This document shows, in pieces, positions 1-10,926 of a stretch of 64,000 nt of DNA (within the stretch, counting starts at the first letter, position 1; each line of letters begins with the position of its first letter). The notes below the pieces were generated by a model. The model was not told the DNA's origin. It saw nothing but the letters and a program-made list of their open reading frames with translations, and searched no databases. Source of the stretch: Melioribacteraceae bacterium (lineage in GTDB: Bacteria > Bacteroidota > Ignavibacteria > Ignavibacteriales > Melioribacteraceae). Both the position numbers and the translations under genes were made by a program. The stretch covers positions 1-64,000 of the forward strand of contig JAKIUC010000012.1 in assembly GCA_021647785.1 (NCBI GenBank). The letters are read 5' to 3'.

Positions 1-214
1 TCGTTTTTTGGAATTTTGACATTGAGATTTGGGATTTATTTGTTATTTGTCCGTGGGACTCTGTGAGAATGTTGTCATTTGTAATTTTCTGCCAAAAATA
101 ACACGGATATTACTGATAAGATACTAACTCCTCTAAAAGAGTCTTATGCCGAGGGCATCCTTACAGGACAAACCTACGGAGGCATAATTAACTCAGCCAT
201 ATAATTTTAAGAGA
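1..214. other. Left-edge spacer with a possible decayed coding remnant
   Basis: No convincing gene is visible here. On the + strand one frame stays open from about 85 to 201 and stops at 202-204. Its 39 codons have no start and no recognisable domain, so it may be the tail of a decayed gene or chance. A 5-bp hairpin with a 3-nt loop lies at 146-158. The first 60 bases are T-rich low-complexity DNA. Confidence 0.25.
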
Positions 215-250
215 TAAAAAAAAAGCGATTCAAATGAATCGCTTTTTTAA
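215..250 (-). terminator. Rho-independent terminator after atpC
   Basis: Eight-base arms (224-231 and 236-243) enclose an AAAT loop. A-runs on one side and T-runs on the other lengthen the stem and supply a U-tract in either direction. It begins a few bases past the atpC stop codon, so it most likely ends the atpDC transcript and could also stop rightward transcription. Confidence 0.85.
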
Positions 251-254
251 CAAA

Positions 255-659
255 CTATTTTCTTAATTTTATTCTATTTATTGCCCTTTTAAGAGCAAAC
301 TCAGCACGGAAAGTATCAATATCCGATTCATTAGATTCCTTTTTAATTCGCTTTTTAGCTCTTTCACGTGCCTCTTCAGCTCGCTGCAAATCAATATCTT
401 CTTTACTTTCAAATGATTCTGCAAGAACAATAACTTTATTATTTAATACCTCTACTGTGCCGCCACTTGTTGCATAATTCGTTTTGTTTTTAGTTTCATT
501 CTCTATTTTAATAAACCCAACTTCAAATGAACTCATTAAGGGAGCATGATTAAAAAGGACTTGAAAATTACCCTTTGTTCCAGGTATTGTAATTGATTTT
601 ACATTACCTTCAAAAGCAATTTTGGCGGGGGTTACTATTTCAACTTTCAATTCTTTCAT
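255..659 (-). CDS. atpC: F1F0 ATP synthase epsilon subunit
   Basis: This is the epsilon subunit of the F1 sector, part of the central stalk, which links proton flow through F0 to catalysis and can inhibit ATP hydrolysis. At 134 residues it has the usual length. The N-terminal beta-sandwich (about 1-85) carries the conserved PGxxGxFQVLxxHAPL stretch near residues 26-42, and the C-terminal half is a charged helical hairpin. It lies 108 bp downstream of atpD in the same direction. The spacer has no obvious terminator, so the two are probably co-transcribed. No other ATP synthase genes are in the window; a separate atpDC pair is common in the Bacteroidota/Chlorobi group. Confidence 0.95.
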   Translation of the reverse strand: MKELKVEIVTPAKIAFEGNVKSITIPGTKGNFQVLFNHAPLMSSFEVGFIKIENETKNKTNYATSGGTVEVLNNKVIVLAESFESKEDIDLQRAEEARERAKKRIKKESNESDIDTFRAEFALKRAINRIKLRK

Positions 660-767
660 AATTTAGATATGAGATTATGAGATGTGAGACGCAAGACTTT
701 TTAAATATCTTCTCACATTTAATCCCATTTATTTTCCATTTTTTGTCTTGATACTTAATACTTCTAT

Positions 768-2180
<1,413 letters not shown>

Positions 2181-2942
2181 TTAACACCTTAATTTGATAA
2201 AAAATAAATTGAAAATTACCAATTTATAGTTATTTAATCAATTTAATTTCTGCATAAGAGCAATTATTTTAGAAAATAATAGCCGCAAAATCTCAAAACA
2301 ACAAGGAGAGTCAAAAAAAACGGCTGAGTTCTAATAATGATCCCGAAGTGTCGGGATTGGGCTATCCATCGGATTCTTTCAGAAGATCCCTCTTTTCTTT
2401 GTCATTACTATTCACCCTACCCTGAAGGGTAGAGTAATTAAACAGATGAAATTGCCCCATCCTTTAGCATAATGGTGTCAACTTAACAAGAACCCACCCC
2501 TTAATCCCCTCCCAAGAGGGGAAATACTCACCATCTCGCTTTGCGAGATGGTGCAAAAGATCCCCTCTTGAGAGGGGAAGATGCTTTAGCATCAGGGGTG
2601 TGTTAAAATATTGATGAAGCCTAACCGCTAAAGTTGATACCATTGTCCTTTAGGGTGGGGATAAAAAGTATCACTCAACACTAGGCTTAAGCCTAAAAAT
2701 ATATTTAACATTTGCTGTAATTATTAGAACTCAGCAAAAAAAACAAATAAACTCACTTCGTCTCTTTTGCCGCAGGCATTCCTTTGGAAGTAGCAAAGGA
2801 AAAAATAAAACAGAAGAAAGAGATTTTATTACTTCTCTTCTATAGTATTGACGACTAAATCCTTGTTTTTTTTTGTAAAGAAATTGTAAGGGTAAAAAAT
2901 ATTATATTTTTCTTTTCTTCGCCTTTGCCTCAGCCTTGCGGT
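2181..2942. other. Palindrome-rich intergenic spacer
   Basis: No gene is supported in these 762 bases. It contains a series of short inverted repeats: TCCCGA/TCGGGA arms at 2341-2356, 7-bp arms with a 2-nt loop at 2417-2432, the nested element at 2455-2660 and a perfect 14-bp palindrome at 2682-2695. The atpD promoter is expected near the left edge, in the AT-rich stretch at 2190-2280. Confidence 0.6.
2455..2660. repeat. Nested inverted-repeat element (MITE-like)
   Basis: Outer imperfect inverted repeats of 28 bases (2455-2482 and 2633-2660; 22 of 28 positions agree, by eye) enclose an inner pair (2491-2523 and 2561-2604). Each inner arm pairs a CCCCTCTTGAGAGGGG-type palindrome with an AGGGGTGTGTT-type end. 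At the centre is an 11-bp perfect stem with a 3-nt loop (2529-2539/2543-2553). The inner arm motif recurs at 23543-23667, which shows it is a dispersed genomic repeat. It has no coding capacity. Confidence 0.75.
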
Positions 2943-3803
2943 TCACCGCCATATGTAAGTTAAACCATTTTCCAAAACATAATCGTAGTACCACAATAAA
3001 TCTTTAACATTCTCCGGTTCAGTAAAATCTACAATCCTTCTATTAATTGAATGTGTCATTACTGAATCACCACCATCAGGAAATTCTGCTGAACTTATTA
3101 CAGTTTTAAATGGAAAACTTGAAACAACAACACCCTTGGAATCTAATATTCCTGTTATATTTAGTTCCCAATTAATATCAGGAATAATATGTTTAGTTTC
3201 ATAATAGAGTCCTCTGATGTTTCCATAGATATCATTCCAATCAGTATAATTCTTAACATCAAAATCTCTTTGTACAGCTATGAACTTAGAATCAGTACTA
3301 CCTGGTCTATAAACAGAATATTGTGTGTTAGGAGTTATCCTTTTAGGAAATATTGGGAATTGGTAATTTAGTGAAGTGGGAAACAATGTAGTATCTGCTA
3401 TTACAGCACCTCTTTTCATAAAAATCATTCCACTTCCTAATATATCGCTATTCTGAAAGAGTACCCATTTATCATCAACAGATACTACTATTTTTCCCGA
3501 ATCTTGATAAACATCCGTTCCTGAAATAAGTGGATTATATATTTCTATTTCTCCAATATATTCAACTCCATCAGTTTTTGGAGAAACTGAATTAAATTGT
3601 AGGGAGAAAATGTTAATTCCCAAAGGGGTTAGCGAATCAACGGAATCACCAAGATAGACTCCGGTTGCATAAATTGCTTTTTTTCCAATTGGGAATTCAA
3701 TATTAATTGAATTATCTGTTGGTGGTACTAATGTTTCTGAACATCCAATGTAAAATAGACTTGCTGATAATAATAAAATTGAAATGATTTTTGATTTGTG
3801 CAT
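2943..3803 (-). CDS. Hypothetical outer-surface lipoprotein
   Basis: I do not recognise this 286-residue protein. It starts with a lysine-containing n-region and a hydrophobic segment, then a lipobox ending FYIGC, with Cys21 the likely lipidation site. It should therefore be exported and anchored in a membrane. The rest is a beta-rich, low-cysteine globular region without known motifs. It stands alone: a palindrome-rich spacer follows it and a 10-bp tandem array lies upstream. The last codons (TYIWR) run into a GC-rich segment (about 2925-2955) unlike the surrounding AT-rich DNA, so the true C-terminus may have been altered by repeat insertion. Confidence 0.8.
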   Translation of the reverse strand: MHKSKIISILLLSASLFYIGCSETLVPPTDNSINIEFPIGKKAIYATGVYLGDSVDSLTPLGINIFSLQFNSVSPKTDGVEYIGEIEIYNPLISGTDVYQDSGKIVVSVDDKWVLFQNSDILGSGMIFMKRGAVIADTTLFPTSLNYQFPIFPKRITPNTQYSVYRPGSTDSKFIAVQRDFDVKNYTDWNDIYGNIRGLYYETKHIIPDINWELNITGILDSKGVVVSSFPFKTVISSAEFPDGGDSVMTHSINRRIVDFTEPENVKDLLWYYDYVLENGLTYIWR

Positions 3804-6943: not shown

Positions 6944-7570
6944 TTATTCATCAATTAGTTCTTTAATAACTTCAACAATTATATCACTTGTAAAACCTCT
7001 TCCTCTCATAAAATTAAAAAGTTTCGATTTAATTTTATTCTTATCAGTTTCCCCTCTTTTTATAATTATTTCATATTTGCTTTTCCCAAGTTCAAAAGCA
7101 TTTTCATAATTCTTTGGGTTCTCATTTATTGCTTCTGTTACTTCTGCAATTATTTCGCGTGCAATTCCTTTTTTATATAATTCAGAAGTAATTTTGATTA
7201 TTCCCTCTTTTCTTCTTTCAACTCTGTTGCGAACAAAGTTCTCTGCAAATGTAAAATCATTGAGGTACATTTTATCTTTTAAATCAATAATTACTTTTTG
7301 AATAATCTCCGGATCAAATCCTTTTTTCTTTAGCTTTGTTTCAAGTTCAAATGCTGAGTGATTACGGTTGGATAAAAAACGAAATGCAGAGTTCTTAACT
7401 TCAAACTCTGCATTAGTTAACTTAATTTCGTCTATTTTTTGTGATGTTATTTCACCTCCCTTTAATAGAGAGAATGTTAAATATACATCATAATAAATTT
7501 CGAGTTTTTCTGATTCATCAAAACTTAGAATTATTTTATTTCTTCTTTTCTCAATGCTTTGGAGAATCAT
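6944..7570 (-). CDS. recX: RecA regulator RecX
   Basis: RecX binds the RecA filament and modulates (usually inhibits) recombinase and LexA co-protease activity. The 208-residue protein is all-helical with the repeated three-helix pattern of the family, including the [16 protein letters not shown] block near 88-103. A beta-rich leader of about 60 residues precedes the repeats. Its ATG overlaps the recA stop as ATGA, so the two are translationally coupled, as in many bacteria. Confidence 0.92.
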
Positions 7571-8604
7571 TTTTCTTTTTTAGATTTCTTCTCTTCTTTT
7601 ACTTCTTCCTTTATCATTCCGAGAGCAAGTTTTACCTCTTTTTCAATTTTGGCAAATAACTCTTTATCTTCATTAAGGCGTACTCTAAATCTCTCTCTTC
7701 CGTTGAACCTCTCCTCTCCGTATGTGAACCAGGCTCCACCTTTTTGAACTATCTCTTTTTCAACGGCAAGGTCTATTAAATCCCCTTCTTTACTAATTCC
7801 TATATTATATAAAATATCGAACTCAACAATTTTAAATGGAGGTGCAACTTTACTCTTTACAATTTTAACTTTTGTTCTATTTCCAACAATATCTTGTCCA
7901 TTTTTAATGGCAGCAATTCTTCTTATATCCATACGCACAGATGCGTAAAACTTAAGTGCATTACCTCCTGTTGTGGTTTCGGGAGAACCGAACATAACAC
8001 CAATTTTACTACGGAGCTGATTTGTAAAGATAACTGTGGTGCGCGAACGAGAAACAGCACCTGTAATTTTACGAAGTGCCTGCGACATCAAACGAGCTTG
8101 AACACCCATCTGGGCATCTCCCATTTCTCCTTCAATTTCTGAACGTGGAACGAGTGCAGCAACAGAATCAATAATAATTACATCCAGTGCATTACTACGA
8201 ACAAGAGTATCAACAATTTCTAAAGCTTGCTCTCCATAATCTGGCTGCGAAAGGAGTAGATTTTTAACATCAACGTGAAGTTTTTTTGCATAGTTAGTAT
8301 CAAGTGCATGCTCTGCATCAATGAATGCAACAATCCCTCCAGCCTTCTGTGCTTCTGCAATTATGTGAAGGCAAAGTGTTGTTTTACCGGAAGATTCTGG
8401 CCCATATATTTCAACAATTCTTCCACGTGGTACGCCACCAATACCGAGAGCGTTATCCAATGAAATAGAGCCGGTTGAAATTGATTCAATTTGGTTGATA
8501 ACACCATCACCCAATTTCATTATTGCTCCCTTCCCGTAGGTTTTTTCAATTGCGCTTATTGTATCTTCCACTATTTTCAATTTCGCTTCTTTTTCGTCAG
8601 CCAT
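7567..8604 (-). CDS. recA: Recombinase RecA
   Basis: RecA is the ATP-dependent strand-exchange protein for homologous recombination and the SOS co-protease. It has 345 residues with Walker [10 protein letters not shown] at 68-76, Walker B in [12 protein letters not shown], and the L2-region sequence [13 protein letters not shown]. The C-terminal tail is lysine- and glutamate-rich. The cinA-recA-recX order is a familiar one, but here a transposase unit of about 1 kb and a duplicate of the cinA tail separate cinA from recA. The promoter may therefore lie within the inserted DNA; no clear SOS box was found. Confidence 0.98.
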
Positions 8605-8652: not shown

Positions 8653-8702
8653 AACAACCAGGTTCTAATCTTCATACTCAATGCCAAGTAATTTTCTTCT
8701 TA
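8653..8702 (-). pseudogene. Duplicated 3' end of cinA (remnant)
   Basis: These 50 bases match 9658-9707, the end of cinA, at 46 positions, counted by eye. On the minus strand they read RRKLLGIEYED-stop, against RRKILGIEYED-stop in the intact gene. Two of the coding differences are silent and one is Leu/Ile. The match ends abruptly on the recA-distal side, where unrelated DNA follows. It sits about 60 bases before recA, the place where cinA would be expected to end without the insertion. Confidence 0.85.
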
Positions 8703-8840
8703 TTGTGTACTGAATCTGACAACCTTAAACTTAGAGTATTCATTTTACAATTCTCCTATCAACTTCTAAAAACATTACACTGCAATAATGCAAAGCAGAA
8801 TGGTACAAATCTGTATGCTTGTATTTCAATTTCTGTATTA

Positions 8841-8866
8841 ACTGCGTAGCAGTCTAATGTTTGTAG
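8841..8866. repeat. Hairpin with conserved AATGTTTGTAG flank, transposase side 1
   Basis: A short stem (ACTGC/GCAGT, 8841-8845 and 8849-8853, loop GTA) is followed by AATGTTTGTAG at 8856-8866. The reverse complement of this flank, CTACAAACATT, occurs beside another hairpin at 9541-9569 on the far side of the transposase gene. The pair is consistent with the subterminal imperfect palindromes recognised by Y1 HUH transposases. Confidence 0.65.
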
Positions 8867-8892
8867 GAAAAGACGAACATGAAATGTACAAA

Positions 8893-8910
8893 AAACCACG
8901 TTAGTGGTTT
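8893..8910 (-). terminator. Hairpin just past the transposase gene
   Basis: Seven-base arms AAACCAC/GTGGTTT (8893-8899 and 8904-8910) enclose a GTTA loop. Read on the minus strand it follows the transposase stop by about 35 bases and is followed by a T-run, so it could end that transcript. It may equally be one of the element's structural hairpins. Confidence 0.5.
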
Positions 8911-8944
8911 AATAATTTTTGTAAATATTCGATGAAATTATTAT

Positions 8945-9403
8945 TTATTCAATATCAAATAAATATTTTTCATCATATTCAACACCATATTTTTTCATAA
9001 AATCTTTATATTCATCCTTAAATGTTCTTTTTTTATGATGATCTTCTTGATTCATTATATATTTGTAAACCTTATCTATTTGCGAATGACTATGTGAAAA
9101 TACACCAAAACCATCTTGCCAATTAAATTTTATTTTAGACCAGCGTTTTCTTTTTACCAAATCTGTTGATGCAATTTTTATCTCTTTTACTAAATTTGAT
9201 ATTGCAATTGTTGGATGTAATCCTATAAAAATATGAATATGGTCTGGCATAGAATTAATTGCAATTATTTTGCATTTCTTGTTTTGAACCACTCCAGTAA
9301 TGTATTTATGTAATTCATTTTTCTTTTCTTTTGGAATTAAATTGCTTCTGCTTTTTACTGAGAAAACTAAATGTATATATACTTGATGATACGTATTAGC
9401 CAT
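8945..9403 (-). CDS. IS200/IS605-like Y1 HUH transposase (REP-associated type)
   Basis: This is a single-strand DNA transposase of the Y1 family, which nicks at a hairpin-marked site through a covalent phosphotyrosine link. All 152 residues are present: the metal-binding HUH pair is H55-I-H57 within MPDHIHIFIG, and the likely nucleophile is Y115 in KYIMNQEDHH. The family pattern WQ-G-G-FS-S-S precedes it and a VEYDEKYLF tail follows. No tnpB lies nearby. Hairpins on both sides share an inverted CTACAAACATT motif, so this resembles a stand-alone or RAYT-like unit. It lies between cinA and recA and is accompanied by a 50-bp duplication of the cinA end. Confidence 0.92.
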   Translation of the reverse strand: MANTYHQVYIHLVFSVKSRSNLIPKEKKNELHKYITGVVQNKKCKIIAINSMPDHIHIFIGLHPTIAISNLVKEIKIASTDLVKRKRWSKIKFNWQDGFGVFSHSHSQIDKVYKYIMNQEDHHKKRTFKDEYKDFMKKYGVEYDEKYLFDIE

Positions 9404-9496
9404 TTTATTCCTCTGTAGTTAAGTCTGTTTAATTTTTTTATAAATATATTCACATACAATCTTCAATGGAATTGTTTTTCATTCAATAAAAACATT

Positions 9497-9513
9497 GAAC
9501 TGCTCCGCAGTTC
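9497..9513. repeat. Hairpin, transposase side 2, first stem
   Basis: Perfect 7-bp arms GAACTGC/GCAGTTC (9497-9503 and 9507-9513) enclose a TCC loop, preceded by AACATT. The stem core CTGC/GCAG matches that of the hairpin at 8841-8853 on the other side of the transposase gene. Confidence 0.7.
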
Positions 9514-9540
9514 TGTGAGCTATTTGCTTTTTTTTCTGAG

Positions 9541-9569
9541 CTACAAACATTTGATGGCTAACGCCATCA
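9541..9569. repeat. CTACAAACATT plus hairpin, transposase side 2
   Basis: CTACAAACATT (9541-9551) leads directly into 7-bp arms TGATGGC/GCCATCA (9552-9558 and 9563-9569) with a TAAC loop. It is the inverted counterpart of the side-1 unit at 8841-8866: the 11-base flank is conserved while the stem sequence differs, as in structure-recognised transposon ends. Confidence 0.7.
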
Positions 9570-9669
9570 GATTTTGTTTCTCCATATTCCATAACCGACC
9601 AAACACTATATAAGTAATCCACTATAATATGTTCATTTATCTATCATCTACTTTGACAACAACCAGATT

Positions 9670-10926
9670 CTAATCTTCATATTCAATACCAAGTATTTTT
9701 CTTCTTAGCATATCAAGTGCTGCTTGGGATGTTCTATCTTTATTCTGCATTCTTTCATCACCAAATATAAACTCACGTGCTGTACAAATATTTGCATCGC
9801 AATAGCCAATATAAACTAACCCAACTGGTTTATTATATGTTGCTCCACCAGGTCCCATAATTCCAGTTACCGATAAACCTATATCAGTTCCACTAATAGC
9901 TTTAACTCCTTCAGCCATTAAGCGTGCAACCTCCATGCTTACTGCACCATATTTTTCAATCATATCTTCATCAATCTTTAGCAGTTCTACTTTTGCCCCG
10001 TTACTATAAGTAACAATACCTCTTTCAAAATAACCACTGCTACCTGCAACATTTGTTAAACGAGAACTTATCAAACCACCAGTACACGATTCAGCAGTTG
10101 CAATTGTTAAATCTCTCTCTAATAATAATTTACCAACTACTTCTTCTAACAAATCATTTTCAGTTCCGTAAATATATTGTCCAACTTTGGTTCTAATCTG
10201 CTGTTCAATATGCGACATTATATTTTGTGCATCATCTGCATCCTTACCATCAACTGTAATTCTTAATCGTACACCAAATATACTTGGAAGAAAAGCCAAT
10301 ACATTTTCATTTAACAGTTCCTCCAAATTTCCTAATCTTTCAAAAACAAATGATTCAGGAATACCCGTTGTAAGTAACGATTTAGTTATTCTGTTATCTT
10401 TTGTTTCAAGTTTCTCATCGGTTAAACGAGGGATAACATAACCAGTCATCATCTCCTTCATCTCAAATGGTACGCCAGGCATTGCAACAAATATTTTGCC
10501 ATCTTTTTCAATCCAAACGCCAGGTGCAGTACCATTGTAGTTTCTAATTACATCCGAAATCTTTGGCACCATTGATTGGGCTACATTAGAATGTGTAATC
10601 TCTCGTTTTCGTTTTTCAAATATTTTTGTGATATCTTTTAAAACTTCTTCTGATCTAACTAATTCTGTGTTAAAGAATTTAACAATACAATCGAGAGTTA
10701 AGTCGTCGTGGGTTGGTCCTAATCCGCCAGTTACAAGAACAATATCGTTGTGAGCAAAGGCTCTCCTGAATGCCTCTAATATTGCATCCTCTTTATCTCC
10801 AACAACAACGGCTCTGTTTACATCTACATGAATCTCAGATAAAACTTCACCTATATAGGCGGCATTAGTATTGAGAGTTTGTCCCGATAATATTTCATCA
10901 CCAATTGTAATAATTTCTGCTTTCAT
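9670..10926 (-). CDS. cinA: CinA-family protein (NMN amidohydrolase / ADP-ribose pyrophosphatase)
   Basis: This two-domain protein is thought to act in pyridine-nucleotide salvage. The N-terminal MoaB/MogA-like part (about 1-170) carries GDEILSGQTLNTNA and VTGGLGPTHDDLT; the C-terminal CinA/PncC domain (about 255-418) carries the ATAESCTGG active-site stretch and GIMGPGGA. At 418 residues it is complete despite the adjacent transposase insertion. It is 13 bp from pgpA, which it follows in the same direction. Its last 12 codons are duplicated at 8653-8702. Confidence 0.93.
   Translation of the reverse strand: MKAEIITIGDEILSGQTLNTNAAYIGEVLSEIHVDVNRAVVVGDKEDAILEAFRRAFAHNDIVLVTGGLGPTHDDLTLDCIVKFFNTELVRSEEVLKDITKIFEKRKREITHSNVAQSMVPKISDVIRNYNGTAPGVWIEKDGKIFVAMPGVPFEMKEMMTGYVIPRLTDEKLETKDNRITKSLLTTGIPESFVFERLGNLEELLNENVLAFLPSIFGVRLRITVDGKDADDAQNIMSHIEQQIRTKVGQYIYGTENDLLEEVVGKLLLERDLTIATAESCTGGLISSRLTNVAGSSGYFERGIVTYSNGAKVELLKIDEDMIEKYGAVSMEVARLMAEGVKAISGTDIGLSVTGIMGPGGATYNKPVGLVYIGYCDANICTAREFIFGDERMQNKDRTSQAALDMLRRKILGIEYED

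Follow-up and report, generated by a model that had tools for sequence, protein, structure and literature searches.

Some islands (e.g. SCCmec in rlmH) integrate into gene ends and restore them. For the IS200/IS605 enzymes larger target duplications are not known (PMC2817692). The TnpA-Y1 proteins of subclass 1.2 are defined by the signature Y---Q--HH together with an HUH motif (DH[IV]H) and WQ, and in the 2018 survey that defined them they were generally without the typical terminal IS200 secondary structures and displayed no IS properties (PMC6006769). The locus described here is part of a 64,000-nt stretch of the genome of a Melioribacteraceae bacterium (contig JAKIUC010000012.1, positions 1–64,000), termed the window. 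A tnpA gene is found in it between two copies of the end of cinA. Literature searches, with partial coverage, turned up no description of duplicated gene ends near RAYT or Y1 genes; as far as the literature searched can tell, it is new that subclass 1.2 enzymes occur together with REP-like hairpins and with repeated cases of gene-end duplication.

The window TnpA scores 78 bits against NF033573 (cut-off 55) and 32 bits against NF047646, which is below the cut-off of 80. The motif Y...Q..HH is present at 190 of 200 homologous tnpA loci. Judged by its amino acid motifs (Table 1), the window enzyme fits TnpA-Y1 subclass 1.2. The original prediction of an IS200/IS605-type enzyme holds for the Y1 HUH domain (PF01797), but the subclass 1.2 signature and the REP-like surroundings set the enzyme apart from classical IS200 transposases. 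The copy number of tnpA is low, as four matches in genome G000 represent three loci, one of which is split. No other copy of the flanking non-coding DNA of the unit was found in G000 or its genus beyond short repeats.

Table 1. Features of the window (positions in nt) and gene ends duplicated around related tnpA genes at other loci
Feature	Location	Strand	Size, identity	Remarks
recA	7567..8604	-		PF00154, E 2.2e-135; order cinA-thpR-recA in relatives
T2, displaced second copy of the cinA end, beside recA	8653..8702	-		Leu codon TTA
Stretch between the tail copies	8703..9657	.	955 bp	tnpA, four hairpins, one repeat end
Degenerate match to REP-like tail	8766..8783	-		GCAGTGTAATGTTTTTAG
REP-like unit	8841..8866	+		Hairpin ACTGCGTAGCAGT, then CTAATGTTTGTAG; half of inverted pair around tnpA
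REP-like hairpin	8893..8910	+		AAACCACGTTAGTGGTTT
tnpA, Y1 HUH transposase	8945..9403	-	152 aa	DHIH, WQ, YIMNQEDHH; Y1_Tnp PF01797, E 1.5e-26
REP-like hairpin	9497..9513	-		GAACTGCTCCGCAGTTC (as read on +), then AATGTTTTTATTG on - strand
REP-like unit	9541..9569	-		Hairpin TGATGGCGTTAGCCATCA, then AATGTTTGTAG on - strand; other half of inverted pair
End of dispersed MITE-like repeat	9571..9608	+		Terminal sequence ATAACCGACCAAACACTA (9591-9608); single end
T1, gene-attached tail copy	9658..9707	-		cinA coding part 9670-9707; Ile codon ATA
cinA, intact	9670..10926	-	418 aa	NF001813, E 3.8e-129
hsdM before hsdS	L041		62 nt, 84%	N6_Mtase, Methylase_S
cas7	L199		56 nt, 89%	Cas_Cas7; Cas4 follows
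hsdS-like tail	L047 and relative L050		71 nt, 73%	Named from sequence, no Pfam match
hsdS	L212		44 nt, 89%	Methylase_S
udk (uridine kinase)	L273		44 nt, 82%	
hsdS-like tail	L275		159 nt, 96%	No Pfam match
hemB head	L263		87 nt, 80%	ALAD; displaced copy frameshifted

T1 and T2 are identical at 46 of 50 positions in an ungapped alignment of 50 nt (blastn E-value about 8e-15 among the sequences compared), and they are 1005 bp apart, start to start. This confirms the 50-base copy of the cinA end, with four differences, and the unit of about 1005 bp with an HUH transposase that had been predicted. The sole coding gene between the copies is tnpA, and the sequences that follow T1 and T2 are unrelated to each other. 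Two of the four differences are silent in cinA (GGT/GGC and GAA/GAG), the third is ATA/TTA (Ile/Leu) and the fourth is 3′ of the cinA stop codon. The prediction took this pattern to mean that the copy had evolved as a functional gene end. The two silent changes and the Leu/Ile exchange are as it described them, but constraint cannot be proved from as few as three coding differences. Evolution as a working gene end cannot be derived from the window, where it is the gene-attached copy, expected to be constrained, that has the derived Ile.

The cinA sequence was searched in 146 related genomes and the cinA-recA junctions were then read. The relatives display a single cinA tail without an insertion, followed by thpR and recA, in agreement with the view that the duplication belongs to the insertion. 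Among 38 other cinA loci there is no convincing second tail, including in relatives free of the transposase; a partial match of 26 nt is found in L015. The tail copy was also considered as a common repeat with no relation to cinA; this was rejected, as the clear matches in other genomes of the genus are cinA ends. The window cinA has 78%–79% identity in three genus mates.

In most relatives read, an open reading frame of ~185 aa comes after cinA, with its ATG overlapping the cinA stop codon, and recA is next. From its sequence this open reading frame appears to be thpR (2′-5′ RNA ligase type). Its start sits inside the tail: TATGARGATTAGA, reading M-R/K-I-R. Because the tail of the relatives contains the thpR start, the duplicated stretch is the cinA/thpR junction, which corrects the earlier description of it as the cinA end alone. 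A genome-wide search shows thpR to be absent from the window genome (best match E-value 0.3). T1 and T2 have AAYCTGGTTGTT in common after the cinA stop codon, where the relatives continue thpR, and thus thpR was probably lost or altered at the window locus before the duplication. Loss of thpR is repeated within one genus: in the window genome (8600–9670), in G001 (L007), which is without an open frame of 60 aa at the thpR position, and in G003 (L008), which has ~345 bp of non-coding DNA in its place. The gene is intact in G004 (L006). A candidate 3′ remnant of thpR beside T2 matched no better than shuffled sequence and was dropped.

The amino acid at the variable position is Leu in nearly all order-level relatives; Ile is found only in L071 and L072. 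T2 has the Leu, and its GGC is found in two genus mates. T1 has the Ile and GGT, and its GAA is also present in L008 and L009. Since T2 keeps the ancestral Leu and T1 carries the derived Ile, these codons suggest that T2 is probably the native cinA end, four differences being too few for certainty.

Hairpins have a density of 7.45/kb within 350 nt of tnpA at 200 loci vs 0.68/kb in shuffled flanks, an eleven-fold excess. An inverted pair of REP-like hairpins with the tail AATGTTTGTAG flanks the window tnpA, the two REP matches being at 8849–8866 (+) and 9541–9558 (-), and the same inverted pair surrounds a tnpA remnant at G000:C1 12047/12322. The sequence GCNRTCNAATGTTTGTAG has 14 matches in the genome (two mismatches or fewer) vs 3 for a reversed control, which is far below the usual numbers of REP. 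The window unit is composite, because an unrelated dispersed repeat also has one of its ends there. This MITE-like repeat has the termini TATAGTGTTTGGTCGGTTAT and is apparently TA-flanked; the window has one end of it, and other copies of the ATAACCGACCAAACACTA repeat are located in G000 contigs C3, C40, C41, C54 and C72. Insertion of the unit within a MITE was considered and rejected, as a second MITE terminus near 8703 was not found.

Neighbouring gene ends repeated beyond tnpA were sought at 91, then at 200 distinct tnpA loci, and such cases, which the original prediction had proposed to look for, were found repeatedly (Table 1). Duplication lengths range from 22 to about 250 bp. The displaced cas7 copy carries a stop codon. 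An automated rule gave 13 matches in 11 of 170 tested tnpA loci, seven of them gene tails once hairpin arrays were removed (arrays and gene tails were sorted by eye). These are the window, L041, L042, L047, L199, L273 and L275. Gene tails are thus found at 7/170 tnpA loci vs 1/678 control tails (p = 8e-5, odds ratio 29). The controls were genes of cinA-neighbour loci of similar taxa and of the window, for which the search space was longer than for the tests, and the lone control match is weak (75%). L042 (22 nt, 100%) has an unclear gene frame and is not counted as strong, yet it is within the automated seven.

Several candidates were set aside. The repeats at L193, L259, L294 and L308 are hairpin arrays. 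L313, L318 and L321, where tnpA is between genes with closely similar starts (ML(R)FFRxIRxKL...), look like probable paralogues in a row and not head duplications. At L046 (G130:C57, tnpA-oriented 23–3448) a tnpA of the same family is inside an apparent diversity-generating retroelement, in the order variable-repeat gene, 116-aa Avd-like open reading frame, tnpA, template repeat and reverse transcriptase-like open reading frame. The repeats there are the template and variable repeats, and 21 of their 22 differences are at template adenines.

Half of the genes whose ends are duplicated belong to type I restriction systems (hsdM and hsdS at L041, L047/L050, L212 and L275). In L275 (tnpA-oriented 2060–2210) the displaced hsdS tail has short palindromic inserts, e.g. 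CGCCTGCCCGTCGTAGGCGGG, that are absent from the gene-attached copy. In L041 the tnpA ATG overlaps the hsdM stop codon, as the hsdS ATG overlaps the displaced one.

The coding differences between the two copies, pooled over seven cases, are 30.5 synonymous and 26.5 non-synonymous. The neutral expectation is 14.1 synonymous (p = 6e-6). With an omega of 0.2 for the gene-attached copy and neutral evolution of the displaced one, 35% synonymous differences are expected and 54% are seen (p = 0.006, for a small, selected set of cases and an assumed omega). Constraint on both copies fits the pooled differences. As these are too synonymous for one drifting copy, the divergence favours two alleles that diverged as working gene ends. 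Of the two routes originally proposed, recombination with a diverged cinA or insertion followed by repair, it is the diverged-allele option that gains support from this excess.

One case can be compared with a sister genome, L369, whose udk has a single tail in the stretch examined. At four of five informative sites (synonymous, read by eye) the displaced udk tail T2 of L273 matches L369, and at those four sites the gene-attached tail T1 matches the outgroup L370. T1 differs from the udk of L369 by synonymous changes only; T2 displays three amino acid changes of five (by eye). As far as the tail, the body of the L273 udk is at least as similar to the sister as the rest is, and no foreign tract is visible.

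The explanation tentatively preferred, at somewhat less than an even chance, is that the unit arrived linked to a diverged version of the gene end and displaced the native end. The unit would consist of a subclass 1.2 TnpA gene (HUH, single-strand cleavage) and REP-like hairpins. A donor relative would have carried it just behind its own cinA. A strand with the gene end and the unit would have entered and, through homology, aligned with the resident cinA. Its far end would then have become linked to a point within the resident tail that at some loci borders a REP hairpin. The outcome would be an intact cinA, with the native end T2 pushed against recA. What TnpA did, which donor was involved and how the ends were joined are inferred. 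It seems that the unit lodges in genes that nonetheless remain complete.

Arrival with a diverged end is in accord with the single tails of the relatives, which have no unit, with the Leu of T2 and the derived Ile of T1, with the recurrence around the same enzyme in the scan, and with the pooled synonymous excess. T2 starts close behind hairpins: at 4, 11 and 13 nt in L041, L042 and L273, and directly behind one in L199 (by eye). The window T2 junction, however, is 138 nt from the nearest clear hairpin, and the four differences in the window alone cannot separate a donor from duplication in place. The absence of a foreign tract in L273 udk also stands against it. In addition, hsdS genes recombine on their own.

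A strong rival, ranked next and judged quite possible, is that TnpA/REP insertion duplicates 20–250 bp of the target in place, by widely staggered nicks or by re-copying at a replication fork. From then on the copy attached to the gene would stay constrained, and the displaced one would drift. Target duplication upon insertion can account for both gene tails and one head (hemB), and displaced copies show decay (the hemB frameshift, the cas7 stop). The 96% identity of the L275 copies suits local copying and is less favourable to a donor. L273 gives evidence both ways. The amino acid changes in T2, with synonymous changes only in T1, agree with duplication in place, but at four sites vs one T2 sides with the sister gene and T1 with the outgroup, which speaks for arrival with a diverged end. 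Duplication in place is also at odds with the variable lengths, with the excess of synonymous differences and with what is known of target duplication by IS200/IS605 enzymes.

An unlikely source of the duplications is REP-driven local amplification, as proposed for BIMEs, in which a REP array and a gene end are copied in tandem and tnpA lies in one module. L199 (G080:C1, tnpA-oriented 839–2148) is an example. In this CRISPR locus, with cas4 downstream, the cas7 tail together with three hairpins recurs in tandem every 195 bp exactly, and these hairpins and the tail are present again behind tnpA. Local amplification thus also occurs, and this array counts against arrival from a donor. Many tnpA genes also lie between long direct repeats that contain hairpins. 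The window, L041, L212 and L273, however, have one tail on each side with no repeated array, and in the window unrelated sequence comes after both tails.

It is quite improbable that the cinA end was duplicated by chance in tandem, with insertions falling later into a harmless spacer and the unit having made nothing. The composite nature of the 955 bp (tnpA, hairpins and an unrelated repeat end) indicates that material collected there, but the association recurs in unrelated genes far above the controls, and a tnpA-free relative with a convincing second cinA tail was not found among the loci read. The joining of two strains in metagenome assembly is very improbable: many compared genomes are MAGs and that of the window comprises 99 contigs, with 3.5% contamination, but the same structure is present in single-contig assemblies (L199 in G080, L047 in G012, L050 in G091), and the copies differ, so that there is no long shared word for a false join.

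A broader and rather unlikely proposal is that subclass 1.2 units form a mobile element class of their own, which carries a recoded end of the target gene and has REP-like hairpins as its ends. If true, these units can insert in tightly packed operons and important genes and leave them unbroken, a natural “insert and rescue”. If the duplication belongs to their movement, it would be a new, harmless way to settle in gene-dense genomes and an exception among Y1 transposition events, which as a rule leave the target unduplicated.

SCCmec-type islands are similar in that the insert lies between two copies of the gene 3′ end and the gene is whole. Their integration relies on tyrosine or serine recombinases and a single fixed site, in contrast to an HUH enzyme and many genes here. 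With IS200/IS605 the window unit shares the Y1 HUH transposase (PF01797, NF033573 above cut-off). It differs from these multi-copy elements with fixed ends by its low copy number, and left and right ends cannot be drawn for it. IS200/IS605 insertion is not known to make a larger target duplication; a 50-bp end is duplicated in the window, and other gene ends are at other loci, in which insertion may have played a part. Ordinary transposition of this type does not explain the duplication, as was originally predicted.

RAYT/TnpA-REP systems (REPtrons) have a comparable inverted pair of short palindromes that flanks tnpA, with further copies in the genome. REPs are dispersed there in many copies, and the 14 matches in the window genome would be few for REPs. 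Their class 2 signature Y---NP is absent here, the window motif being YIMNQEDHH. In REPtrons GTAG is directly 5′ of the hairpin; here it is on the 3′ side, after CTAATGTTT or AATGTTT, some 7–9 nt away. Gene-end duplications are not described in the parts of that literature covered, unlike here.

Another of the closest systems is TnpA-Y1 subclass 1.2, with the same signature, DHIH and WQ motifs, a length of ~150 aa, Bacteroidetes-type hosts and few copies per genome (PMC6006769). The hairpins enriched around tnpA differ from the tendency of subclass 1.2, which is not a strict criterion, to lack terminal structures. The defining survey gives no known substrate or mobility for these transposases (PMC6006769). 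Unlike the genes in that survey, window-type tnpA genes are found amid dense REP-like hairpins with the adjoining gene ends duplicated, and this association is a first handle on the substrate and mobility of subclass 1.2.
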